Positions 15,506-36,946 of a stretch of DNA of 64,000 nt are shown here, piece by piece. The notes under the pieces were generated by a model. The model had not been told where the DNA came from, made no database searches, and saw nothing but the letters and a program-made list of their open reading frames with translations. Within the stretch, counting starts at the first letter, position 1. Each line of letters begins with the position of its first letter. This DNA is from Cylindrospermum sp. NIES-4074 (GTDB lineage Bacteria; Cyanobacteriota; Cyanobacteriia; Cyanobacteriales; Nostocaceae). A program made the position numbers and the translations under genes. Where the stretch lies: positions 6,289,687-6,353,686 of the forward strand of contig AP018269.1 of the NCBI GenBank assembly GCA_003994795.1, in the 5' to 3' direction.

Positions 15506-16369
15506 ATGACAATCATCAAAGGTAAGACAGTGCTTTTGACCGGTGCTTCACGCGGTCTTGGAGTATATATGGCTCGTAATTTGGCAAAAGAGCAAGCAAC
15601 TGTGGTTTGTGTTTCTCGTTCCGAGTCAGGGTTAGCTCAAACTTGCGCTGAAATTAATGGTTTGGGTGGTAAAGCAATTAGTATTCCCTTTGATGTTAGA
15701 AATCTGGAAGGTTTATCAAATTTAGCACAACAGGTTAATGAAGTTGCTGGGCCAGTGGATATTTTAATTAATAATGCTGGTATTGAAATTCATCGAATTT
15801 TTGCAGATTATTCTCTAGAGGAAATTCAGTCAGTATTGACAACTAATCTGCTTTCTGTGATGGAATTAACTCGTCAGTTTCTACCAAGTATGTTAGAACG
15901 GCGTAGTGGACATATTGTGAATATTGCTTCTCTTGCTGGTAAAAAGGGAGTTGCTTACAGCAGCATTTATTCAGCCAGTAAAGCCGGTTTGATTATGTGG
16001 ACTGATGCAATTAGGCAAGAATTGGCTGCAAGTGGCATCAAGGTTTCAGCAATTTGTCCCGGTTATGTCTGTGAAGCTGGAATGACGGTTGATAGTTGCG
16101 TACCAATACCCAAATTAGCGGGTGCATCTAAACCAATAAATGTAGCTAATGCCATCATCAAGGCTATTAAGCGAAATGAGGTAGAGGTAATTATCAATGA
16201 AAATGTGATACTAGAATATTTCACAAAACAAATGTTTGCTATTGGACAAATTTCACCCCGCTTGGTAGATTATATGTATCGCTGGATGGGTGTGGTGGAA
16301 CTAAATCAAAAGCGGGTGGAAAGTTTGGAAAAAAGTGAATATTTAGGAATTGATTCTCCTCATAAATAG
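15506..16369 (+). CDS. hetN: HetN-type short-chain dehydrogenase/reductase
   Basis: The 287 residues equal the length of Anabaena HetN, and the position between the glycolipid genes and hetI is the same. The protein is a classical SDR: TGASRGLG cofactor loop (residues 12-19), NNAG near 90, Ser of NIASLAG near 142 and YSASK near 155, so ketoreductase activity should be intact. In Anabaena 7120, HetN also carries ERGSGR, whose RGSGR pentapeptide keeps already formed heterocysts spaced. The homologous stretch here reads ERRSGH (15895-15912), so the patterning peptide is absent. The gene may serve only glycolipid ketoreduction in this strain. The start ATG is 10 bases after the heptamer repeats. 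Confidence 0.85.
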   Translation: MTIIKGKTVLLTGASRGLGVYMARNLAKEQATVVCVSRSESGLAQTCAEINGLGGKAISIPFDVRNLEGLSNLAQQVNEVAGPVDILINNAGIEIHRIFADYSLEEIQSVLTTNLLSVMELTRQFLPSMLERRSGHIVNIASLAGKKGVAYSSIYSASKAGLIMWTDAIRQELAASGIKVSAICPGYVCEAGMTVDSCVPIPKLAGASKPINVANAIIKAIKRNEVEVIINENVILEYFTKQMFAIGQISPRLVDYMYRWMGVVELNQKRVESLEKSEYLGIDSPHK

Positions 16370-16557
16370 CCCTAACGACTGGAAGTCGCGGCTACCAGAA
16401 CGAAGTCCGCCTGCGCGGACTGAATTCAGATTTTAAAAGTTGTATGGGGGCAAAATTAAAATAGCCCTAACGACTGGAAGTCGCGGCTACACAAACGAAG
16501 TCCGCCTGCGCGGACTGAATTCAGATTTTGAAACTTGTGTGGTGGCAAAATTCAAGA
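16368..16557. repeat. Two tandem ~95-bp palindromic repeats between hetN and hetI
   Basis: Two copies (from about 16368 and from about 16463) share TAGCCCTAACGACTGGAAGT, an AACGAAGTCCGC/GCGGACT hairpin and a CAAAATT tail. They separate the convergent hetN and hetI genes and contain no gene. Related TCGCGGCTAC and GTCCGC palindromes recur near 36755-36922. Confidence 0.85.
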
Positions 16558-19492: not shown

Positions 19493-20207
19493 AGCCCTGA
19501 AATAAATTTCGGGCTGAAAGCTCAAGTCATCTAAAGATGACTAAATTCAAGGAAAAACCAACCCGTTAAAACGGGTTTTGGCTTTGAGCCGGAAATTTAT
19601 TTCACGGCTATATTCAATTATTCAGCTTCATCAAAATCTCTCTCTAAACTCTTAATAATCGTACCTTGACGATGATGCTCTTTTTGGTTATTGACATAGG
19701 CTTTTGCGTCATCTAGTTGTTTACCCCCTAAACTTAAAACACCATAGCCATTTTGCCAACTAAACTCTAAATTTGAAGATAATTTACAATGATTCAAATG
19801 GTAAGAACTACTTCCTTTAATTTGCTTGACAAATTCTGCAATAGATAGTTTTGGTGGAATAGAAGCTACAATATGAATATGATTTTCTGTTCCATTAATA
19901 GCATGAATAATACAACCCAAAGCATCACCTTTGCCGATTATATATCCATACAATTCTGACTCTTTCTCTGGAGTAATTAAAGGTTGGCGATTTTGCGTTG
20001 CCCAAATCAAATGATAATAAGTTCTCCAAAATGGCATATTTTTAGTAATTCAATTTACTGTTTTAACTGGTTTTGGCTTTTAGCCGGAGAATATAGCCCA
20101 TAAATTTCGGGCTGAAAGCTCAAGTCATCTGAAAATGACTAAACTCAATGAAAAACTAACCCGTTTTAACGGGTTTTGGCTTTGAGCCGGAAATTTATTT
20201 CACGGCT
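19493..20207 (-). mobile_element. Y1-transposase gene bracketed by palindromic repeats (RAYT/IS200-like unit)
   Basis: A transposase gene is flanked by two similar ~115-bp palindromic copies, 19493-19609 and 20095-20207, in direct orientation. Each holds a GTCATCT..AGATGAC-like hairpin and an AACCCGTT..AACGGGTT hairpin. The left copy also has near-perfect ~25-bp terminal inverted repeats (TGAAATAAATTTC core). A half copy stands at about 20060-20093. The layout matches REP-associated tyrosine transposases, in which the enzyme recognises such hairpins. Confidence 0.75.
19618..20037 (-). CDS. REP-associated/IS200-like Y1 tyrosine transposase
   Basis: This 139-residue HUH single-strand transposase is of the Transposase_17 family. 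The metal-binding HUH motif is in ENHIHIVAS near residue 53, and the nucleophilic Tyr with its helper Gln is in AYVNNQKEHHRQ near 113. The start YYHLIWATQNRQPL is typical. All catalytic parts are present, so the enzyme is probably functional. No TnpB partner accompanies it, which together with the flanking palindromes favours a RAYT over a true IS605. Confidence 0.88.
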   Translation of the reverse strand: MPFWRTYYHLIWATQNRQPLITPEKESELYGYIIGKGDALGCIIHAINGTENHIHIVASIPPKLSIAEFVKQIKGSSSYHLNHCKLSSNLEFSWQNGYGVLSLGGKQLDDAKAYVNNQKEHHRQGTIIKSLERDFDEAE

Positions 20208-20218
20208 TCACTCAGATA

Positions 20219-20836
20219 TCACAATTTATAAATCTGACTAGCGGCAATAACCTGCTCAACTGTTATATTTAATTCTATAAAAGTAGGAGAAATTATTCGG
20301 TCTTTTCCTGTAAATGCTTGCATTTGATATTGCTCATCAACCAACTGATAAACAAAAATAGTCGGTACTTTGGGATTCCCTAGATAATTTCTAGAGGCAA
20401 TCGCTAAATAATCCACAATCCAATATTCTTTAATTCCCAAACGTTGATATTCATCTAGTTTGTCAATATAATCATCTTCCCAGTTGGTTGATGTTACTTC
20501 TACAGCTAGTTGAATTGGTTCGATAACAGCGCCGTAAGTTGTAACATTGGCGTTCCATAAAGATGCACTTACTACGCTAACATCTGGGTTTCTCCCTCGC
20601 TGCTCCCCGTTGGCTGTAATAGTTCTGATGACTATATCTTTATCAACAATATAGTCAAGTTCTAAACGCTCGCTTTCTCTATCAAGAGATTTAACAAGAT
20701 ATCTGGCTATATTTTTATGCGCCCTAATAGCTTCCTCTTTGACAATCTCCCCATTCACCAATTCGTAAATACCATCATCAGGACGATGTTCGAGAAATCC
20801 TTCAAAAGTCAGTTTTTTAAGTGTAGTGGTAGTCAT
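20219..20836 (-). CDS. Uma2-family (DUF820) PD-(D/E)XK protein
   Basis: The 205-residue protein has the Uma2/DUF820 fold, a restriction-endonuclease-like domain greatly expanded in cyanobacteria and of unproven function. Markers are DGIYELVNGEIV near residue 18, NPDVSVV near 82, the acid-rich AVEVTSTNWEDDYIDKLDEY near 110 and GIKEYWIVDY near 135, which line up with the D, E and K of the nuclease core. It begins just outside the right palindrome of the transposase unit. Two further Uma2 genes lie at 26836 and 62861; they are not close copies of this one. Confidence 0.88.
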   Translation of the reverse strand: MTTTTLKKLTFEGFLEHRPDDGIYELVNGEIVKEEAIRAHKNIARYLVKSLDRESERLELDYIVDKDIVIRTITANGEQRGRNPDVSVVSASLWNANVTTYGAVIEPIQLAVEVTSTNWEDDYIDKLDEYQRLGIKEYWIVDYLAIASRNYLGNPKVPTIFVYQLVDEQYQMQAFTGKDRIISPTFIELNITVEQVIAASQIYKL

Positions 20837-24343: not shown

Positions 24344-25411
24344 TTAAACAAACGTTTTGAGAAACTTAAGTGCTTCAGTTTTATTTTGAAAGAGGGCATG
24401 AATTAAGTCACCGTTATTATAACGAATATCAATCTCGTACTTTAATGCTGGTGCGACTGTAGTTTGATTATCTGGCTCTTCATTACTTATTATGCTAAAT
24501 ACGTCCATTCATCAGACTGAAACCCTTGCCGGATAAGAACAACAGTTGTTATTGTTAAGTGTTTTGGACTTGGTTATAAAATTTAGTCTACAAAAACCTG
24601 TAAGCCTTGATTTTAAAGGCAAGTTCTAGATTTTCATTAAAAATTCAGCATAACACCTACTGAAGAGCCGATTATCTGGATAATTCTGGATATATTCAAT
24701 GGCATTTTCAATAGTTACGGATTGCTGAACTATTCCATGTAAGACAATAACATTTACTTCTTGAACTAGTCTAGCAAAGGACTGTTCTAAGGTATGGATA
24801 AAGTTATCTATTTGGGATTTTTCTAGTCTCAGTAATTGATTTTTAATGTTGGTGATATTCTGCGCTGATAAACCATTCAATTGAGCGATCTTATTTTGAA
24901 ACTCTACTTCTGAAGTTTTTTCATTAAAAGATGCATTTATACCAACTGATGCAAATGCTTTAACTATATTGTCATACTCAAGATAAAGGATTTTAAAGCC
25001 CTTAGACTCTAGTTGATTAAGCGCACCTTGAGTAAAAACACCTGCTAGAATAGCACCTAAAAACGGATTAAGTTGACTATAGGTATCTGCCAGAGGGATA
25101 AGCGCTCCTTCAATTTCTTGAACTTTGTTTCTAGAATGTTTAGTGTAACGTCGCCATGCAGTTTCAATAAATGCTACTGGAAGACCGAGAGTATCTTCTG
25201 TTCCTCCTCGCTCCAGTACATAATCAAGGTCATGATTGTTACCATATCGATCCTGCCATGATACCTTTTTACTGATTCGTGCCTTGCGCTTCTTCTGATA
25301 GTCCAAGTAAAACCCATGTTTATCAGCTACTTGTTGTAGCGTCTCACGAATAAATTCTTGAATTAAATTTCCGATAATTTGACCCCATTTATGTGAAAAT
25401 GACTCTGCCAT
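24344..25411 (-). pseudogene. Type II restriction endonuclease gene interrupted by a 196-bp MITE
   Basis: The frame from 25411 codes a PD-(D/E)XK endonuclease: DLDYVLERGG near residue 62 supplies an acid, and AFIETAWRRYTKHSRNKVQEI near 80 the Glu and basic residues. At present translation runs into the MITE and stops at 24626, giving 261 residues whose last 14 (RLFSRCYAEFLMKI) come from the insertion site and the MITE. Removing the MITE and one copy of the 8-bp target duplication restores the frame exactly through to a TAA at 24344. This gives 287 residues, with 40 lost ones that read as real protein (LKYEIDIRYNNGDL, ending KFLKTFV). The methyltransferase gene lies 36 bases upstream. Whether the shortened enzyme still cuts is unknown. 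Confidence 0.85.
24474..24669 (-). mobile_element. 196-bp MITE, copy A, inside the endonuclease gene
   Basis: The element starts GGCTCTTCA and ends TGAAGAGCC, with imperfect 23-bp terminal inverted repeats (19 of 23 positions by eye). It is flanked by a perfect 8-bp direct duplication GATTATCT (24466-24473 and 24670-24677). It matches copy B at 33200-33395, in inverse orientation, with a single mismatch that I can see. It contains no transposase gene, so it must have moved with an enzyme from elsewhere. Confidence 0.92.
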
Positions 25412-25447
25412 TATATCTAGTTAACAGTAATTGATGTGATTATTAGT

Positions 25448-26755
25448 TTACCCGTGAACCCATAAACAACCTTCACAAAGAGGAATTCTGTGTTTGCGGT
25501 TTTTCCACTTCACATTTCGGTCACGTATTTTTACAAACTCCCAAGATTTAAACCCTGCTGCTTGTGCTAGTAAACCCATCCATTCAATTACCGGCACATA
25601 AACACCATAGGGAGCAGAATCACCAATCACAAAGCAAACTATTGCAGGAGTTTTGCAGACTCGACGTAGTGCTAGCCAAACTTTAGCCATATCAAAAAAG
25701 TAGCAAGCAATCATCAAATGATAATTTTTTTTACCCCCATGTAAATGTCGTTCTTCAGATAACTGGTGATAGACCTTAATAATACTAGACTTGATGGGTT
25801 CGAGTTCTGGAGATGCCAGAATCTCATCAATATTTACATTTTTATTTGTGACGTGCTGCGAACATGAACGAATTAAATATTGCCGCACTGCACTTTGTAA
25901 ATCACCCCAACCAGAAATTTCTTGCATAAAACACATTTCTAAACGAGTAGCATCTGCATAGTCATAGTTGTTAGCATATGGTGGCGAGGTAATTACCAAA
26001 TTGGCAAAATTATCAGGTATACCCTGGCAAGTTCGGGCATCAGATTGAATAATATTCGCCACAGAATTTGCTGTTTTTTGAGCAATTCTCATATCTGTAG
26101 CCATACTTTCTGCCATTAGCTGAAAAGCAGATATTGGCTCTAACGGAGATTGTTTTCTTTTGTTGGGTAAAATATACTGCCAAGGCGCAGTTCCAGCATG
26201 AGAAACGTGGCGAAGGATTGACACAAGTGTCAACCAAACTAACTGGGATTGAGTTGAATCATCAGCAAGCTTTTCCCAAGATTGTCGCAATCTATCTAAA
26301 GATTCTAGTGAGGATATGCTAAAGCAATCATGAATCAACTTTGGATATTTATCTACACAAGCTTGCAGATGTTCAGTAGACTCAATAACATTTTTTGTAT
26401 ATTGAAGATAGGCATCAGCATCAGTTTGATATAAAAGTTTAGCTTTTGCTATCCGCACAACGAATGGATGAGCCTCAACCCCATAACATTTAATTCCTAG
26501 CTTTTCAGATGCGAGTAAGGTTGTACCAGAACCAGCAAATGGATCTAAGACAATAACTTCTCCTTTTTGCTTGGCTTGATTAATGATTGTTTCTACCCAT
26601 TGTGCAGAGAATCCTGCACTAAATCTAAACCAGCGGTGAACTGGCAATTTCATGTTATCTATGAAGGTAGAAGAACTGTTGAAAGATTTAGAAGTAATAG
26701 AAGATAGTTGTGGAGCTAAAATTTCTTTAAATGGCAATTCTAATTGTTCACTCAT
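25448..26755 (-). CDS. DNA methyltransferase of a type II restriction-modification system
   Basis: The 435-residue protein has the AdoMet-binding motif VLDPFAGSGTT near residue 70, and further on the catalytic motif LVITSPPYANNYDYAD near residue 250. TSPPY is usual for N4-cytosine methyltransferases, though N6-adenine is possible. Motif I precedes motif IV. The C-terminal part (KVWLALRRVCKTPAIVCFVIGDS) is the end of the fold. It is followed after 36 bases by the cognate endonuclease gene, which is broken by a MITE. The methyltransferase may thus be a solitary survivor that still marks the genome. Confidence 0.88.
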   Translation of the reverse strand: MSEQLELPFKEILAPQLSSITSKSFNSSSTFIDNMKLPVHRWFRFSAGFSAQWVETIINQAKQKGEVIVLDPFAGSGTTLLASEKLGIKCYGVEAHPFVVRIAKAKLLYQTDADAYLQYTKNVIESTEHLQACVDKYPKLIHDCFSISSLESLDRLRQSWEKLADDSTQSQLVWLTLVSILRHVSHAGTAPWQYILPNKRKQSPLEPISAFQLMAESMATDMRIAQKTANSVANIIQSDARTCQGIPDNFANLVITSPPYANNYDYADATRLEMCFMQEISGWGDLQSAVRQYLIRSCSQHVTNKNVNIDEILASPELEPIKSSIIKVYHQLSEERHLHGGKKNYHLMIACYFFDMAKVWLALRRVCKTPAIVCFVIGDSAPYGVYVPVIEWMGLLAQAAGFKSWEFVKIRDRNVKWKNRKHRIPLCEGCLWVHG

Positions 26756-26835
26756 GCTGAGGTTTATTATTTGTTATATTCTGAATCAATAAAATAGCCA
26801 TTGCCTTTTTGTTTTCAAGTGAAGATGCAATTCCC

Positions 26836-27420
26836 TCAACTAAAACTCACAGGTGGTAACATCTCCAAAACTACAATCTGCAAATCAGGAAACTCTAAGG
26901 GTGAAATAATCCCATCTTCTGCCAAAATCACTTCACTTTGATAACCGTCTTCAGTTGGTTCGCGGAATATATGCAAATAACGGTTAACCACATCTAACAC
27001 CCAATAATCTTTAATTCCCGCTTGAGAATAAGCTTTAGCTTTAGTTTCACAATCTAATTTCAAACTGCTATCTGCTACTTCAATAATCAGATAAACTTCT
27101 GAAGGGGTGGGATGATGATCTGCATACCACAGCGGGTCAACTTTAACAACAGAAATATCCGGTTCTGGTTCAGACCGATTATTTAACTTTACGGGGTCTT
27201 GAACAGATACCCAAGCGCGTTTTCCTAAAAGGTTTTTCAGTAAATAATCTGTTCTCCCCACAGCTGACCGATGGGCTGTTCCTTTAGCAATCATCCAAAT
27301 TATCTTCCCTTCCAGAAGTTCCACACGTTCATCTGCACCAAAAATTCCAGCCTCAGCCATCCGGTGGTACTCGTCAACTGTCCACAGGCGCAGTTTTAAA
27401 GTTGTTTCTGTGTTCTGCAT
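26836..27420 (-). CDS. Uma2-family (DUF820) PD-(D/E)XK protein
   Basis: This 194-residue Uma2 protein shows WTVDEYHRMAEAGIFGADERVELLEGKI at the start, EPDISVV near residue 90, and the nuclease-like core VYLIIEVADSSLKLD with KAKAYSQAGIKDYWVLDV. The conserved acids and the Lys are in place. The cellular role of the family is unknown. It lies beside the restriction-modification pair on the same strand, separated by 80 AT-rich bases. Confidence 0.9.
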   Translation of the reverse strand: MQNTETTLKLRLWTVDEYHRMAEAGIFGADERVELLEGKIIWMIAKGTAHRSAVGRTDYLLKNLLGKRAWVSVQDPVKLNNRSEPEPDISVVKVDPLWYADHHPTPSEVYLIIEVADSSLKLDCETKAKAYSQAGIKDYWVLDVVNRYLHIFREPTEDGYQSEVILAEDGIISPLEFPDLQIVVLEMLPPVSFS

Positions 27421-27545
27421 GGCTTATTTAGCAACTGTGAGGAGCAATTCATATCCTAACATTTTTAACTTGACATATCAATATTAATATGATAGGGACA
27501 CAGCATTGCTGCGCCCCTACCCCGCGTTGCATCCAAAGATAAGTT

Positions 27546-28307
27546 TTATTCTTCCACAATTTGAATTTCATCGAGTTGGTTAATCACCACATCCGCACCT
27601 CGGACATTATCGGATTTACCCACCCAAGTGATGCCAATACAACCTGCTGCTTTAGCATTACGGGCCATTTGCATATCACCGACGGAATCACCTACCATCA
27701 GAGTAGCCCCTGGTTCGACTCCCAAAGCTTGGCAAGCTTGCAAAAATAATACTGGATCTGGTTTACTCGGCCCCTCATCTACTCCCATTTCCAGCTTGAT
27801 ATAATCCCTTAGCTGGTGAGTGGCGACAAATTCCTGCACTTCTTGAGTTGTCGCCGCTGAAAGAATGCCAAGTTTTAACCCTGCTGCTGACAGAGACTGC
27901 AACACGTCCAAGCTACCCACAAACAGCGGTGAGGGGGTTGTACCAATATATTGTTCAGCTTCCGCTAAAGCTTGACGGGCGATTTTTAAAGACTCAAACC
28001 ATCCTCTACCAGTTTCGGCAATATATGCCGCAGCTGCCACTTCTGTTTCCCGGCGACTCGCTACTGATATTAAACCGGCTGGATCTAGGCGATCGCTATT
28101 TATCCCAAAAGCCATTAACAACGGTTCCCCAATTCCGGGAATCTGTGCGTCTATCATCCGCGCACATCTTTGTCCAAGCGATCGCAAATACACTTCAGAA
28201 TCTTCTAAGGTACCATTTTTATCAAACAAAATCGCTTGGATATTAGAAAATATGCTGTTTTTACATTTAATAGTAGCCAAAGATTCCACCCCGCTCAAGC
28301 AATTCAA
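27546..28307 (-). CDS. HAD-superfamily hydrolase (Gph-like)
   Basis: The 253-residue phosphatase-like HAD protein has the usual order of motifs: nucleophile motif AILFDKNGTLEDSE near residue 26, a helical cap, LGILSAAT motif II near 135, Lys in EGPSKPDP near 178 and VGDSVGDMQMARNAKAAG near 201. Motif I reads DKNGT rather than DxDGT: the nucleophile Asp is kept, but the second Asp, normally the general acid/base, is Asn. The family would suggest a phosphoglycolate- or sugar-phosphatase; the Asn makes the activity uncertain. It lies downstream of rps1 on the same strand but behind a terminator. Confidence 0.8.
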   Translation of the reverse strand: MNCLSGVESLATIKCKNSIFSNIQAILFDKNGTLEDSEVYLRSLGQRCARMIDAQIPGIGEPLLMAFGINSDRLDPAGLISVASRRETEVAAAAYIAETGRGWFESLKIARQALAEAEQYIGTTPSPLFVGSLDVLQSLSAAGLKLGILSAATTQEVQEFVATHQLRDYIKLEMGVDEGPSKPDPVLFLQACQALGVEPGATLMVGDSVGDMQMARNAKAAGCIGITWVGKSDNVRGADVVINQLDEIQIVEE

Positions 28308-28349
28308 AATTCAAAATGAAAACGCCAATTAGCTATTAGCACTCATAAA

Positions 28350-28372
28350 AAAAGAGGGATTTCCCCTCTTTT
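28350..28372 (-). terminator. rps1 terminator
   Basis: On the minus strand AAAAGAGGG pairs with CCCTCTTTT around a 5-base loop and runs into a T-rich tract, about 50 bases past the rps1 stop. This is a clean intrinsic terminator that separates rps1 from the HAD gene. Confidence 0.85.
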
Positions 28373-28419
28373 ATATTGCTTTAATTCTCTTAGTTGCAGG
28401 TAATTACAACTAAAATTTA

Positions 28420-29457
28420 TTACTCTTCAACAGCTACGGGAATCTCTTCCTCGGTTTCAGTAGCTGGGGGAATCTCTTCCTCAATTTCAGTAGCTGGGGG
28501 GATATCTTCCTCCGCTAAAGCTTCCGCTGGTGCAGCCGCGACGGCAGTAGCACCTTGCTGTTTAGCTAGCAGCTGTTCCCGATACTTAGCTGCCATTTCT
28601 TCAGCCTTATCATAGACTAAATCACGGTTCTTAATCATGTCACCGGGCTCGGGTTCCAACTGTTTGGTAGATAAGGAAATCCGTCCCCTTTCTGCATCCA
28701 AGTCAATGATCATGACTTTCACTTCATCATTGACATTGAACACGCTATGAGGTGTATCAATATGCTCGTGAGAAATCTCGGAGATGTGTAGTAGTCCGCT
28801 GACGCCACCGATGTCGATGAAAGCACCGTAAGGCTTGATACCGCGAACTGTACCAATTACCACCTCGCCAACTTCCAAACGGTTCATCTTGCGCTCAACC
28901 AACGCCCGACGATGAGAGAGAACTAGGCGGTTACGTTCTTCATCTACTTCAAGGAATTTCAATGGTAGTTCTTCGCCTACCAATTCTTCCTTAGGCTTGC
29001 GAGTGCTGATGTGAGAACCGGGGATAAATCCGCGCAGTCCCTCAATGCGTACCAATGCTCCACCACGATTAGTCGCAAACACGCCAGAACGGACAGTCGC
29101 ATCTTCTGCTTGCAACTGCCGTACTCGCTCCCAAGCCCGCATATATTCAATTCGACGGATCGAAAGAGTTAGCTGACCATCTTCGTTTTCATCGGTGAGG
29201 ATGAAAAATTCCCGTGTTTCGTTTGATTGTAAGACTTCTTCCGGGCTATCCACCCGGTTAATAGACATTTCTTGTATGGGTATATATGCTGCTGTTTTAG
29301 CACCTATGTCAATCAGAGCGCCGCGCGGCTCTATACTGAAGACAGTTCCTGGCACTATATCTCCAGGGCTAAAGTGGTAATCGTATTTGTCAAGTAGAGC
29401 AGCGAAATCTTCGTGAGTAAATCCAATTTCTGTAGCGGTTAAGTTCTGATTGACCAT
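28420..29457 (-). CDS. rps1: 30S ribosomal protein S1
   Basis: The 345-residue cyanobacterial S1 has three S1 RNA-binding repeats: from about residue 30 (GDIVPGTVFSIEPRGALIDIG), 118 (SGVFATNRGGALVRIEGLRGFIPGS) and 200 (GEVVIGTVRGIKPYGAFIDIGGVSGLLH). The acidic tail contains repeated EEEIPPATE units. This three-domain form is usual for cyanobacteria and chloroplasts and shorter than the six-domain enterobacterial S1. It binds mRNA leaders on the small subunit and assists initiation. The 417-base upstream region carries a long heptamer array beyond the probable promoter. Confidence 0.95.
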   Translation of the reverse strand: MVNQNLTATEIGFTHEDFAALLDKYDYHFSPGDIVPGTVFSIEPRGALIDIGAKTAAYIPIQEMSINRVDSPEEVLQSNETREFFILTDENEDGQLTLSIRRIEYMRAWERVRQLQAEDATVRSGVFATNRGGALVRIEGLRGFIPGSHISTRKPKEELVGEELPLKFLEVDEERNRLVLSHRRALVERKMNRLEVGEVVIGTVRGIKPYGAFIDIGGVSGLLHISEISHEHIDTPHSVFNVNDEVKVMIIDLDAERGRISLSTKQLEPEPGDMIKNRDLVYDKAEEMAAKYREQLLAKQQGATAVAAAPAEALAEEDIPPATEIEEEIPPATETEEEIPVAVEE

Positions 29458-29640
29458 GCTGATTTGTTCCTGGTTCTAGTCTCCGTAAGGGTTTTGCCAC
29501 AAGTCTCGATGTATATGCAAGCGCTTAATTATAGCAGTCTACACTTAACATCCTTTATTATCGTAGCGCAGAAAAGCTAGTATTAACACATATTAACTTC
29601 CAGATAGAAAATTATATCATATTTTGAAAAATTAGTCATT

Positions 29641-29742
29641 GAGTGCTGAGTGCTGAGTGCTGAGTGCTGAGTGCTGAGTGCTGAGTGCTGAGTGCTGAGT
29701 GCTGAGTGCTGAGTGCTGAGTGCTGAGTGCTGAGTGCTGAGT
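29641..29742. repeat. About 14 tandem copies of GAGTGCT
   Basis: An essentially perfect array of the 7-mer GAGTGCT spans about 100 bases between rps1 and psbT. It is a short tandemly repeated repetitive (STRR) sequence of filamentous cyanobacteria. The same 7-mer, inverted, occurs in four copies at about 32429-32460. Confidence 0.97.
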
Positions 29743-29802
29743 TTTCCCCATTACTCATTACCAATTACCCATTACCAGCCCAGACAAGGATAAAAATGAG
29801 AA

Positions 29803-29836
29803 TATCCGTTGCTACTCTATTTAGTAACAACGGATA
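29803..29836 (-). terminator. psbB-psbT terminator hairpin
   Basis: TATCCGTTGCTAC and GTAACAACGGATA pair over 13 positions with one wobble around an 8-base loop, about 40 bases past the psbT stop. The minus strand continues TTCTCATTTTTATCC. Confidence 0.75.
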
Positions 29837-29874
29837 CAAGGTTTATTTTCCCTTATAAGTCTGGTAATAACAAC

Positions 29875-29979
29875 CTACTTATCTTTTCTCTCAAAGCGGG
29901 GGGGTTCGCGAAAGGCGATCGCAAAAAAGAGAACGCCTATTGCCAAGGTCAAAATCAAGATGTATGCAACGCTTTCCAT
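29875..29979 (-). CDS. psbT: Photosystem II protein PsbT
   Basis: This 34-residue protein begins MESVAYILILTLAIGVLFF and ends RFERKDK. A single membrane helix is followed by the conserved FREPPRF segment, as in PsbT of all oxygenic phototrophs. It sits at the PSII dimer interface near CP47 and D1 and helps repair of the acceptor side. It follows psbB by 92 bases on the same strand, the usual cyanobacterial and plastid arrangement. Confidence 0.96.
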   Translation of the reverse strand: MESVAYILILTLAIGVLFFAIAFREPPRFERKDK

Positions 29980-30030
29980 ATTACAAGTTCCTGCCTCTTG
30001 AGCCAGTAATCTTAGTTTACCAAGCCAAAC

Positions 30031-30065
30031 AAAAAGTATGAAGTCATGAATACTTCATACTTTTT
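30031..30065 (-). terminator. Hairpin between psbB and psbT
   Basis: AAAAAGTATGAAG pairs perfectly with CTTCATACTTTTT around a 9-base loop, 6 bases after the psbB stop. It could partly end transcription after psbB, or mark a processing and stability site that lowers psbT relative to psbB. The T-run on the minus strand fits an intrinsic terminator. Confidence 0.7.
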
Positions 30066-30071
30066 CTTAGT

Positions 30072-31601
30072 TTAAGCTTCCTTACGAACGCGAGTGCTCT
30101 TGTCACCCACTTTCTGGAACAGACCCCACTCAACTTGTTCTTCTAGATCCGCTTCCACACCAGCAAACACATCTCGGTAAATTGTCCGAGCGCCATGCCA
30201 GATGTGACCAAAGAAGAACAGCAGAGCAAACACAGCGTGTCCAAAGGTAAACCAACCTCTGGGAGAAGTGCGGAATACACCGTCAGAGTTCAAGGTTTCC
30301 CGGTCAAATTCAAAGATTTCACCACCTTGAGCTTTACGAGCATATTTCTTCACATCAGCTGGCTCGGTGAAGGTCTTGCCATCAAGATCGCCGCCATAGA
30401 AGCTGACAGTAACGCCAGATTGCTCAAAGCTATACTTGGATTCTGCCCGACGGAAGGGAATGTCAGCGCGGACAACACCATCTTTGTCAGTCAAAATTAC
30501 TGGGAAGGTTTCAAAGAAGTTGGGCAGACGACGCACTGTTAACTCTCTGCCTTCAGAATCTTTGAATACGGCGTGTCCTTGCCAAGATTGAGCAATGCCA
30601 TCACCCTTCACCATAGGGCCTGTGCGGAATAGACCACCTTTGGCGGGGCTATTACCCACATAGTCATAAAAAGCCAGCTTTTCAGGAATTTGTGCCCAAG
30701 CCTCAGCCAGGGTTGCACCTTGACCAACGCTAGTTTGCACGCGGCGCTCAATTTCCTGACGGAAGTAGCCTTGATCCCATTGGTAGCGGGTAGGGCCAAA
30801 CAGTTCAATGGGGGTGGTAGCGTTACCGTACCACATAGTACCAGCTACAACGAAGGCAGCAAAGAAAACTGCTGCGATACTGCTAGAAAGTACTGTTTCA
30901 ATGTTCCCCATCCGTAGGGCTTTGTAGAGCCGTTCGGGGGGTCTTACTGTGAGGTGGAATAAACCAGCAATAATACCAACAACGCCAGCGGCAATGTGGT
31001 GAGCCACAACACCACCAGGGTTAAATGGGTTAAACCCGGCTGGCCCCCATTCTGGTGCTACTGGCTGAATGCTGCCAGTTACACCAAAGGCGTCAGAAAC
31101 CCACATTCCTGGGCCAAATAATCCGGTGAGGTGAAAAGCACCAAAACCAAAACAGAGTAGACCAGATAAAAACAGGTGAATGCCAAACATTTTTGGCAAG
31201 TCTAGGGCTGGTTCACCTGTGCGGGGATCTCTAAAGAGTTCTAAATCCCAATAAACCCAGTGCCAAACGGCAGCTAGGAATAACAGACCAGAAAGAACAA
31301 TGTGAGCCGCAGCAACGCCTTCAAATGACCAGAAACCAGGATCGGTTGCAGGTGCGCCAGTAACGCTCCAACCACCCCAAGATTGGGTGACTCCTAAACG
31401 TGACATGAAGGGGAGAACGAACATCCCTTGACGCCACATTGGGTTGAGAACTGGATCACTAGGGTCATAAGTTGCCAGTTCGTATAATGCCATCGAACCA
31501 GCCCAGCCTGCCACTAGAGCTGTGTGCATCAAGTGTACAGAAATCAGCCGACCTGGATCGTTCAGAACGACTGTATGTACTCGGTACCAGGGTAGTCCCA
31601 T
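30072..31601 (-). CDS. psbB: Photosystem II CP47 chlorophyll protein
   Basis: CP47 is the core antenna of photosystem II: six membrane helices bind chlorophyll a, and a large lumenal loop (about residues 260-440) lies before the last helix. The start [19 protein letters not shown], paired His in the helices ([14 protein letters not shown]) and the end [16 protein letters not shown] are those of CP47. The length of 509 is standard. It is transcribed with psbT behind it; upstream lies a 900-base repeat-rich stretch that must hold its promoter. Confidence 0.98.
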
Positions 31602-32503
31602 TGACTACGCTCCTCCTCGATGATGAATTTATGTTTACAAAGCAATTTTCTTACCGAGGTGCTCAGAGGCGGAACCCGCCATTTAGAGAACTCTCTGAGT
31701 TTTTGTTATTGCCAAGGTTCTGAGTTTAACCACAGCTTAAATCTGAATGAGTCAGACAGTATGGCTTGTTTGGCATTGTTTATCCGCTTCACTAGCTCTA
31801 CCCTGTGGAGTTGCTATGGTTTCTATGTGCCTCAGCCTTAACTCTGTTCGGCTTGCTGCCAACAAAGTTGGAAGGGAATCAGGCACAAAACCCGCTCGCG
31901 CGATGGCATGCCTGCCCGCAGGAGGCGTTCGGCCCTGCCGTGCCGGAGGCGTTCGCCTAGATAACTTGCCGGAGGTTTTTCTGAGATCAAACACTCCCCT
32001 GGTTTTTAATCAACAAGGCAAACGCCTGTAAGACGTTTGGGCTATAGGATGCGCTAACTCTCAGGAAGTCGCTTTTTCGGCGTCTACACAATTACCAGGC
32101 AAAAATGAGAATGTTTTAAAAAGTGTAACTATTGATGGCACTGTTTGCAAGCGTGTAAATAGTTGCGACTACGTAGCGTGTCGCCGGAATTTCTCCGCCA
32201 ATCTCTATCAGGGATCTAATTTGCTTACTTTTATGATTTCAATGCGGAAGCAGAGCAACAGGAAGGCAAGGAAGGAGACAAGGAGGACTTATTATCAGCT
32301 ATGGCAACCTTCTCGGCGGTTAGGACATTGTTAATTGCTCAAAGCCTTGAAACAACTGGGTTCATACTCAGCAACGCCAGTCCGACGCCACTTGCTTCAA
32401 GTCAGGGAACCCGTCCAACGCAGTGGCTCCTCAGCACTCAGCACTCAGCACTCAGCACTTTGCTCTCTCTCTTCCTTGTCTCTCCCATCTTTCCCTGCCT
32501 TTG
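31602..32503. other. 900-bp non-coding stretch upstream of psbB
   Basis: No convincing gene was found. The first ~100 bases should contain the psbB leader and promoter on the minus strand. From 31880 to 31980 there are GC-rich palindromes (CATGCCTGCCCGCAGG and two copies of GGAGGCGTTCG), of the type that moves in Nostoc genomes. Around 32429-32460 stand four inverted copies of the GAGTGCT heptamer. Purine-rich 32255-32290 and pyrimidine-rich 32463-32505 are loosely complementary. Short open frames here are made of repeats. Confidence 0.65.
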
Positions 32504-32830
32504 CTAGTGAACTACTAGTTGGATGTTTTGCAGCTGACACTTTGCCTCGGCTGTACCTAGTCGTTCGATTACCTGTTCAGCGCTCATCAGACGCTTAAGT
32601 ACTACTTGACCAATGACCTGATTGGCACTTTCTGATGTGATTGGCTTGACTTCGACGGTGAGAACCGCTTCTTCAACTCGATAAAGCCAAAGTAATTCAT
32701 TGTCTTCTACTAAACAAATATTCAGTCGCTGAATATCTGGTTGGCGTCGCCATGCGGTTATCTGCCACAATCCATCGGATGCCCACACTCTGCCAATGGC
32801 CCATCCCTCAGAGAGAAAAAAATACTTCAC
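32504..32830 (-). CDS. Conserved-looking hypothetical protein, 108 residues
   Basis: I do not recognise a named family. The protein (MKYFFLSEGWAIGRVWASDG at the start) is balanced and well-folded in composition, with alternating beta-like stretches (LNICLVEDNELLWLYRVEEAVLTVEVKP) and a C-terminal helix containing LMSAEQVIERLG, quite unlike the repeat-derived frames around it. It is most likely a small soluble cyanobacterial protein. It is divergent from the ABC transporter genes downstream on the plus strand. Confidence 0.6.
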   Translation of the reverse strand: MKYFFLSEGWAIGRVWASDGLWQITAWRRQPDIQRLNICLVEDNELLWLYRVEEAVLTVEVKPITSESANQVIGQVVLKRLMSAEQVIERLGTAEAKCQLQNIQLVVH

Positions 32831-33692
32831 TGTCTTAGTCTCACTTTTAGGCTCTCAATTTGCTGTCAATAATATCCCGATCATCTCAGGCGCTGATGTA
32901 TCAACGATGAAGTTTGTTAGTTTAAAGAGCAAGCTGACGCTCCTAACGTCGAAGATAGTTTTGCGATCGCCAACATATGCACCATCGCCTGCGGTAGGTG
33001 CTTTGCATCATCACTCACCCAAGCTGTAACAGGCAAAATCCTGCTGTACTTCACTTGAGCTACTAGAAAAGCTTGACAAACTTCTTCCTGTGTTAATTAA
33101 AAATCTACGATAAATCTCGTTAATGTGGAAAATTTTAATTAAATAAACAGTTTTGACTGCTCAACCCTGATTAAACTCTATATTTTTGTTAATATTTTTG
33201 GCTCTTCAGTAGGTGTTATGCTGAATTTTTAATGAAAATCTAGAACTTGCCTTTAAAATCAAGGCTTACAGGTTTTTGTAGACTAAATTTTATAACCAAG
33301 TCCAAAACACTTAACAATAACAACTGTTGTTCTTATCCGGCAAGGGTTTCAGTCTGATTAATGGACGTATTTAGCATAATAAGTAATGAAGAGCCATATT
33401 TTTTGTGCCCAAGTTAGCTAAATTGTGTAAGGTTGATGGCGCTAACTTGCTTTAGATCAACTTAAATGTAAAGTTAAGTAACTAAAATGATTTGGGTAAG
33501 TGTAATTAAATGCAAGTACTGTGTAACAGCGAGAATAATCTACAATCAGTTCCAACACGGCGATAATCATGTTTACCCATACCAGACTTTTGAGCAAAAT
33601 GCATCACCAGAATTAATGAATTATAAGAAATAAAGCATAAGAGTTACATATATAGTAGAGTTGCTGACCGCTGATTGAAAATATTTAATTGT
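32831..33692. other. Non-coding stretch containing MITE copy B
   Basis: This is an 860-base AT-rich gap between divergent genes. It holds the promoter side of the 108-residue gene, one HIP1 site near 32964, the MITE at 33200-33395, and about 290 bases upstream of the binding-protein gene. No further gene was seen. Confidence 0.65.
33200..33395 (+). mobile_element. 196-bp MITE, copy B
   Basis: The ends and length equal those of copy A (GGCTCTTCA..TGAAGAGCC), with one internal mismatch. An 8-bp direct duplication ATATTTTT flanks it (33192-33199 and 33396-33403). Target sequences of the two copies differ, but both are 8 bp and AT-rich, showing real transposition rather than segmental duplication. 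Confidence 0.92.
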
Positions 33693-36731: not shown

Positions 36732-36946
36732 TAGGGGCACAGCACTGCTCATTGGTGTCAACTTAAGCGGTTGAAAACCGCAACTACACAGACAAAACCC
36801 ACACTTCGACAAGCTCAGTGACCACCTGCGTGGGTTTCAAACGGCTAATTTTTCCTTAGTCCACGGAGGTGGACTTTGTTTGTGTAGCCGCGATTTCTAG
36901 TCGCTAGGGCTTAAGTTGACACGCATGAGCACTGCTGTGCCTCTAC
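36732..36946. repeat. Nested inverted-repeat (MITE-like) element
   Basis: GTGTCAACTTAAGC at 36755-36768 is perfectly inverted at 36909-36922. Outside it, GGGGCACAGCACTGCTCA and TGAGCACTGCTGTGCCTC extend the inverted repeat with a few mismatches to about 36732-36946. Inside, GTAGCCGCGATTTCTAGTCG and CCACGGAGGTGG palindromes resemble those between hetN and hetI. The rest of the 450-base gap 36601-37053 holds only the terminator and the upstream region of the next gene. Confidence 0.75.

Follow-up and report, generated by a model that had tools for sequence, protein, structure and literature searches.

Two copies of an ISL3-associated miniature element in Cylindrospermum sp. NIES-4074 and the two-lineage family to which they belong

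The window analyzed here, a 64,000-nucleotide stretch of DNA from Cylindrospermum sp. NIES-4074 (contig AP018269.1, positions 6,289,687 to 6,353,686), contains two copies of a 196-bp miniature inverted-repeat transposable element (MITE). Copy 1 occupies positions 24474–24669 on the forward strand, where full-length relatives align with it, and copy 2 occupies positions 33200–33395 on the reverse strand, 8.5 kb away and thus inverted with respect to copy 1, an orientation that the first-pass annotation of this DNA did not mention. The positions of both copies and the single difference between them had been given correctly in that annotation: once copy 2 is reverse-complemented, 195 of its 196 positions are the same as in copy 1 (99.5% identity), and the similarity ends at the element boundaries. 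Each copy is bracketed by a perfect 8-bp target duplication, GATTATCT for copy 1 (24466–24473 on the left and 24670–24677 on the right) and ATATTTTT for copy 2 (33192–33199 and 33396–33403), and we could verify that the two duplications are different, as had been stated. A 9-bp terminal repeat reported at the same time is real, but it is only the start of an imperfect inverted repeat of ~27 bp, GGCTCTTCANTANNTNTTATGCTNAAT, whose left (24474–24500, forward strand, in copy 1) and right (24643–24669, reverse strand) ends can be told apart. When at most three mismatches are allowed, the genome contains 26 instances of this end pattern (12 forward, 14 reverse) and 0 of the reversed control. Element positions 30–168 make up a core (24503–24641, forward strand, in copy 1) that is common to a sister lineage of elements, referred to below as T2, and that contains the most conserved inner block at element positions 124–151 (24597–24624, forward strand), as judged by column shuffles.

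Sites corresponding to those occupied by the two copies are empty in relatives. For this comparison, the MITE and one duplication were removed and the flanks were then aligned to the relatives. At copy 1, three relatives (L159, L160, and L161) align without a gap over 522–536 bp with 79–81% identity, while two of the more distant relatives tried aligned only with gaps. At copy 2, the genome G040 of the same genus aligns across the junction with 72% identity, with three gap columns in 272, one of which is at the duplication. The first-pass annotation had proposed recent transposition of a non-autonomous element, to be checked by looking for similarity reaching past the duplications and for empty sites. 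Similarity stops at the element ends and both copies have an empty site, and the proposal is thus supported by ends, duplications, and empty sites alike.

A search of the whole genome and of relatives with the 196-bp sequence, as had also been suggested, returned seven full-length copies in this genome and many in relatives. In comparison with copy 1, four of the seven are at 98–100% and three at 83–84% identity, and six of them carry perfect 8-bp duplications. Of the 217 genomes in the window's family, 102 have a match to the same query with E of 1e-3 or lower, a count that takes in partial and sister-lineage matches and in which copy numbers per genome are lower bounds; six plasmid records carry the MITE. 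Our alignment of 70 full-length rows, selected from the matches listed in this genome and in relatives, represents 69 distinct copies (L068 is the same as L151), and 67 of the rows are 194–196 bp long. Because perfect duplications are found in 53 of the 70 rows at 8 bp, in one at 7 bp, and in none at 9 bp, the 8-bp duplications are not due to chance; counted by distinct copies, 52 of 69 have perfect 8-bp duplications, and the 17 other rows have mismatched ones or none. The mean identity among 35 non-redundant copies is 73.5%, and their median longest open run in six frames is 17–29 codons with a maximum of 56. A length of 196 bp (below ~500 bp), imperfect terminal inverted repeats of ~27 bp, dispersal in multiple copies with duplications, and no coding capacity are the properties of a MITE.

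The ends and target size had been expected to suffice for finding the transposase family, and a full insertion sequence with the same ends and 8-bp duplications had been named as the thing to look for; both expectations were borne out, and the family is ISL3. Among related genomes, 25 of 30 ISL3 loci bear a pair of the MITE's ~27-bp ends and are here referred to as clade T1. Twenty-three of these 25 insertion sequences are 1425–1458 bp long (~1.43 kb), and 17 have perfect 8-bp duplications. One of them (L100) contains a 444-codon open frame that matches DDE_Tnp_ISL3 (4.8e-63) together with an ISL3 zinc ribbon and the NCBIfam ISL3 model (7.2e-95). The MITE thus has the two marks of an ISL3 derivative, i.e. 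an ISL3 DDE transposase encoded by elements that share its ends and a target duplication of 8 bp. In our model, an ISL3-family DDE transposase would act in trans from ~1.43-kb T1 insertion sequences with the same ~27-bp ends. Having bound the MITE ends, the T1 transposase would make staggered cuts, 8 bp apart, in an AT-rich target, and this stagger would give rise to the 8-bp duplication around the inserted MITE.

We are highly confident that the pair represents two recent insertions of a 196-bp non-autonomous element, which would have been mobilized in trans by an ISL3-family transposase of the T1 clade. That the copies are 99.5% identical, only 8.5 kb apart, and inverted would also be expected if, instead of transposing, one had arisen from the other through a segmental duplication or recombination; however, no similarity extends beyond the element, each copy has a perfect duplication different from that of the other, both copies have empty sites, and further copies lie far off on the chromosome. 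The two empty sites together with the two different duplications rule out a segmental duplication of the pair, and we give this origin practically no weight. Judging from the ends, a T1-clade transposase probably moved these copies, and the alternative that a different transposase did so, for example one of the ISL3 clade T3, of which this genome has a damaged member, appears very unlikely. T3 elements also give 8-bp duplications (four of seven perfect), and the T3 gene present here is interrupted by one stop; on the other hand, T3 ends mostly start GGCTCTCCCAGA and have 5–8 mismatches to the MITE ends, whereas T1 elements have 0–4.

Several observations weigh against the T1 reading. No intact T1-clade transposase that could be a present-day source was found in the genome's own assembly (five contigs, 100% complete). 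Moreover, eight of the 25 T1 insertion sequences are without a perfect duplication, one of the genome's own MITE copies (L005) has no duplication, and the core of the MITE is not found in the 25 T1 insertion sequences. Only 17 bp separate L005 from a further MITE, ~185 bp long, whose ends are similar. Using PF01610, we detected one ISL3 gene with one stop and two partial ISL3 matches in this genome; the best match to the T1 transposase has 46% identity to it, and the gene groups with clade T3, within which mean transposase identity is 0.85 (L222, in which the frame was not found, is excluded from the identity comparison). The T1 transposase may have come from an element that has since been lost or that was brought in on another replicon. 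That no cognate transposase was found prompts the question of how such elements can persist once their source is gone.

T1-type ends are also found on other elements of this genome. A second MITE family of 185–189 bp (L113 1599–1783, L114 1769–1953, L115 1442–1630, and L116 1336–1521) combines such ends with an inside that is mostly different. At another locus (L101 585–2099, corresponding to C1:4747384–4748898), two ~185-bp MITEs with T1-type ends lie around a 297-codon open reading frame that by eye resembles a GNAT acetyltransferase; this arrangement is without an outer duplication and is possibly a MITE-bounded cassette.

Copy 1 truncates a gene for a type II restriction endonuclease. The truncated open reading frame (24626–25411, reverse strand) has 261 codons, the last ~13 of which come from the duplication and the MITE, and the severed 3' part of the gene lies beyond the MITE (24344–24473, reverse strand), where it is collinear with L159, L160, and L161. 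The frame matches the PADLOC model REase_II (E 1.6e-53), with residues 1–244 aligned to positions 1–246 of 288, and has no match in Pfam, NCBIfam, or solved structures. Relatives of the gene are present in 42 of the 217 genomes, this one included. The ten best relatives in other genomes match up to residue 248–250, and nine of these ten have frames of 291–299 codons; nine more distant relatives have single frames of 733–752 codons, which we infer to be endonuclease–methyltransferase fusions. The gene for the partner DNA methyltransferase (25448–26755, reverse strand, 435 amino acids; N6_N4_Mtase 2.1e-16, MTase_II 3.4e-135) is uninterrupted. Thus, the locus catches a MITE severing a restriction-enzyme gene while the methyltransferase gene stays uninterrupted, and the restriction enzyme is now presumably inactive while the methyltransferase probably still works. 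In a different genus, a T2-lineage MITE (L243/L256, G059:C18:229503–229696) cuts a relative of the same endonuclease gene at about codon 228. Copy 2 lies within no listed open reading frame of at least 80 codons, and promoter-like sites around it were not above shuffles (two versus a mean of 3.0).

An inside derived from an insertion sequence by deletion is usual for MITEs, and it is not needed for mobilization by ISL3 elements. We found no support for the MITE being an internal deletion of a T1 insertion sequence: when a profile of the MITE was compared with the 25 T1 insertion sequences, matches were confined to ~24–50 bp near the ends, and inner matches had E 1.5 or worse. Because the core is not present in these insertion sequences, a plain internal deletion fails to explain the origin of the MITE, which, as the profile matches only the ends, is better described as a core of different or unrecognized origin enclosed by two ISL3 ends. 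Conservation inside the element is clustered at positions 124–151 (p = 0.0042 versus column shuffles in a 28-column window; p = 0.003 with 20 columns and 0.02 with 15 columns), and in the T2 lineage conservation tends to fall on the same columns (Spearman 0.33, p = 8e-5). This clustering is not accounted for by RNA structure or by coding, both of which were tested. On each strand, the core consensus has a fold energy of 0 and is not superior to 100 column shuffles, and the core has no coding frame; the whole element folds at z −4.0, which we attribute mainly to its long inverted repeat, and Rfam gave no match at either copy and one weak match elsewhere in the window, below the gathering score. 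By eye, both arms show a CCTT-N7-AAG-N4-ACAG motif 51–72 positions from each end. In-register similarity of the arms ranked fifth of 37 shifts for positions 28–98 and second of 37 for positions 41–80, single-copy alignments gave a mean z of 0.38, and symmetric inner sites were therefore dropped as unproven. We can only guess that contact with a host factor or the transposase lies behind the inner conservation.

The core also led to the sister lineage. With a profile of the core alone, complete or near-complete cores were detected in nine elements with other ends (L102–L105, L152–L154, L156, and L157). The end of these T2-type elements, GGNTCTTNCGTACTTAGCGTGCTAAAT, is found with at most three mismatches in 44 of the 217 genomes. 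All of 20 T2 MITEs of 194–196 bp, picked because both of their ends were listed, carry the core (E 4e-7 or better), which spans ~140 bp. In a tree built from the cores of 35 T1 and 20 T2 rows, the two end classes lie on opposite sides of a branch with support 97/93, i.e. the ends changed once on this 55-row tree, and repeated switching of ends is rejected. T2 ends also bound ~1.3-kb ISL3 insertion sequences, the transposases of which average 45% identity to those of T1. The MITE is a member of an old and widespread family of two lineages, T1 and T2. An exact 21-base word from the core was found in 21 stretches of DNA; 15 of these, all titled as cyanobacteria, have core-profile matches with E of 7.8e-10 or lower. 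In the other six, titled Clostridia, Lachnospiraceae, Pseudomonas (twice), Paenibacillus, and an unnamed bacterium, the match covers only 23–43 core positions with E 3e-5 to 3e-3; we take these short, weak matches as chance, least surely L301 (3e-5), rather than as spread of the core beyond cyanobacteria. Phage records gave no match to the MITE or to a T2 insertion sequence.

The two lineages differ in their target footprint. Among 35 T2 elements, comprising the 20 MITEs, three further MITEs, and 12 insertion sequences, there is no case of matching 8-mers, and their mean 8-mer match of 0.36 compares with 0.35 between different elements and 0.91 for T1. In genome G065, four copies of a 1296-bp T2 element are 99.2–100% identical and none of the four has a duplication, indicating that age does not explain all missing T2 duplications. 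This genome has at least eight near-identical ~1.3-kb ISL3 elements, of which the five that were read (L324–L327 and L353) have no matching duplications, and no exact pair of partner duplications was found across copies among the ends of these five. Similarly, two T2 copies in Gloeothece plasmids and one in a Calothrix plasmid are without duplication. When T2 flanks are scored one at a time against the T1 target profile, the best fit lies precisely at the element end (left, p = 1.7e-12; right, p = 4.4e-8), p-values that are approximate given the comparison with overlapping windows further out. Next to L102, three relatives are homologous up to exactly the left end of the element and again from ~50 bp past its right end, with about 1.7–1.8 kb between the two homologous parts in the relatives. 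The left flank of L243/L256 matches the restriction-enzyme gene, and its right flank has no match in the relatives' stretches. For the second element of L277, three relatives match the left flank as far as the element, and the right flank consists of a repeat that also occurs elsewhere (the flank of the first element is repeated and so uninformative). For L342, two relatives have a match to the right flank that begins at the element, and the left flank does not adjoin this match.

These arrangements of T2 flanks in relatives are consistent with replicative transposition within a replicon. We tentatively propose, at somewhat less than an even chance, that the T2 transposase acts replicatively within a replicon, with each event producing a deletion or inversion and each end keeping a different target. 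If this is true, the ISL3 family contains a genome-rearranging branch, with MITEs spreading likewise. The main rival to this proposal, which concerns T2 only and which we consider possible though not quite probable, is that duplications are made normally and are later lost by recombination between copies or with age. In its favor, T2 ends number in the dozens in some host genomes, the majority of T2 MITEs have diverged well from their nearest neighbor, and recombination between copies and adjacent deletions are known causes of missing duplications (PMC11708052). Against such a loss, no match at 8 bp is found among all 35 elements, which include the four nearly identical copies in one genome; a fifth copy there (L353) is also without a duplication, though GTTTTC occurs in both of its flanks, offset by one base; and in the genus comprising G059–G065, five of six T1 MITEs keep perfect duplications. 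One core with different ends, with and without matching duplications, amounts to a natural experiment on the transposition mode of ISL3 elements.

Other repeats in the window include a 139-codon open reading frame, by eye a Y1 (RAYT-like) transposase, between two 120-bp direct repeats that are 90% alike (19502–20219), the heptamer TGAGTGC in a tandem run (29640–29744), and a 95-bp tandem pair (16364–16553), part of which recurs inverted 20 kb away (36858–36911, 87%).

The pair fixes the exact ends, the target size, and the transposase clade of this element; as a MITE, it is ordinary, and the ISL3 family is already known. Like members of this family, the MITE has partner elements with DDE_Tnp_ISL3 and an ISL3 zinc ribbon and with ends starting GG(C/T)TCTT, and it has an 8-bp AT-rich target duplication; unlike them, it is without a gene, and its core is absent from the 25 T1-clade insertion sequences. 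Among the matches listed in our literature search, we found, in titles and abstract beginnings, no description of this element and no ISL3 clade without duplications. MITEs and gene knock-outs by MITEs are already known in cyanobacteria, as PMC10969869 reports. Nezha is a cyanobacterial MITE for which ISNpu3-like elements have been proposed as the mover (Zhou, Tran and Xu 2008, as cited in PMC10969869 and PMC3049150); set beside it by description only, our MITE is likewise small and non-autonomous, resides in a cyanobacterium, and is linked through its ends to an insertion sequence. In PMC10969869, MITEs are reported to have inactivated microcystin genes in Anabaena. Compared by description and not by sequence, copy 1 resembles these in breaking a gene in a filamentous cyanobacterium and differs from them in that its target is a restriction-enzyme gene. 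The T2 lineage is the part of our observations that could be more than a known kind. Insertion sequences without target duplications at rearrangements have been described (PMC11708052), in events that involve IS3-, IS5-, and IS481-type elements; the word ISL3 does not appear in the main text of that paper. T2 elements resemble these in that their flanks are unmatched and non-contiguous in the relatives compared, and they differ from those events in that every T2 element read here is without matching duplications.

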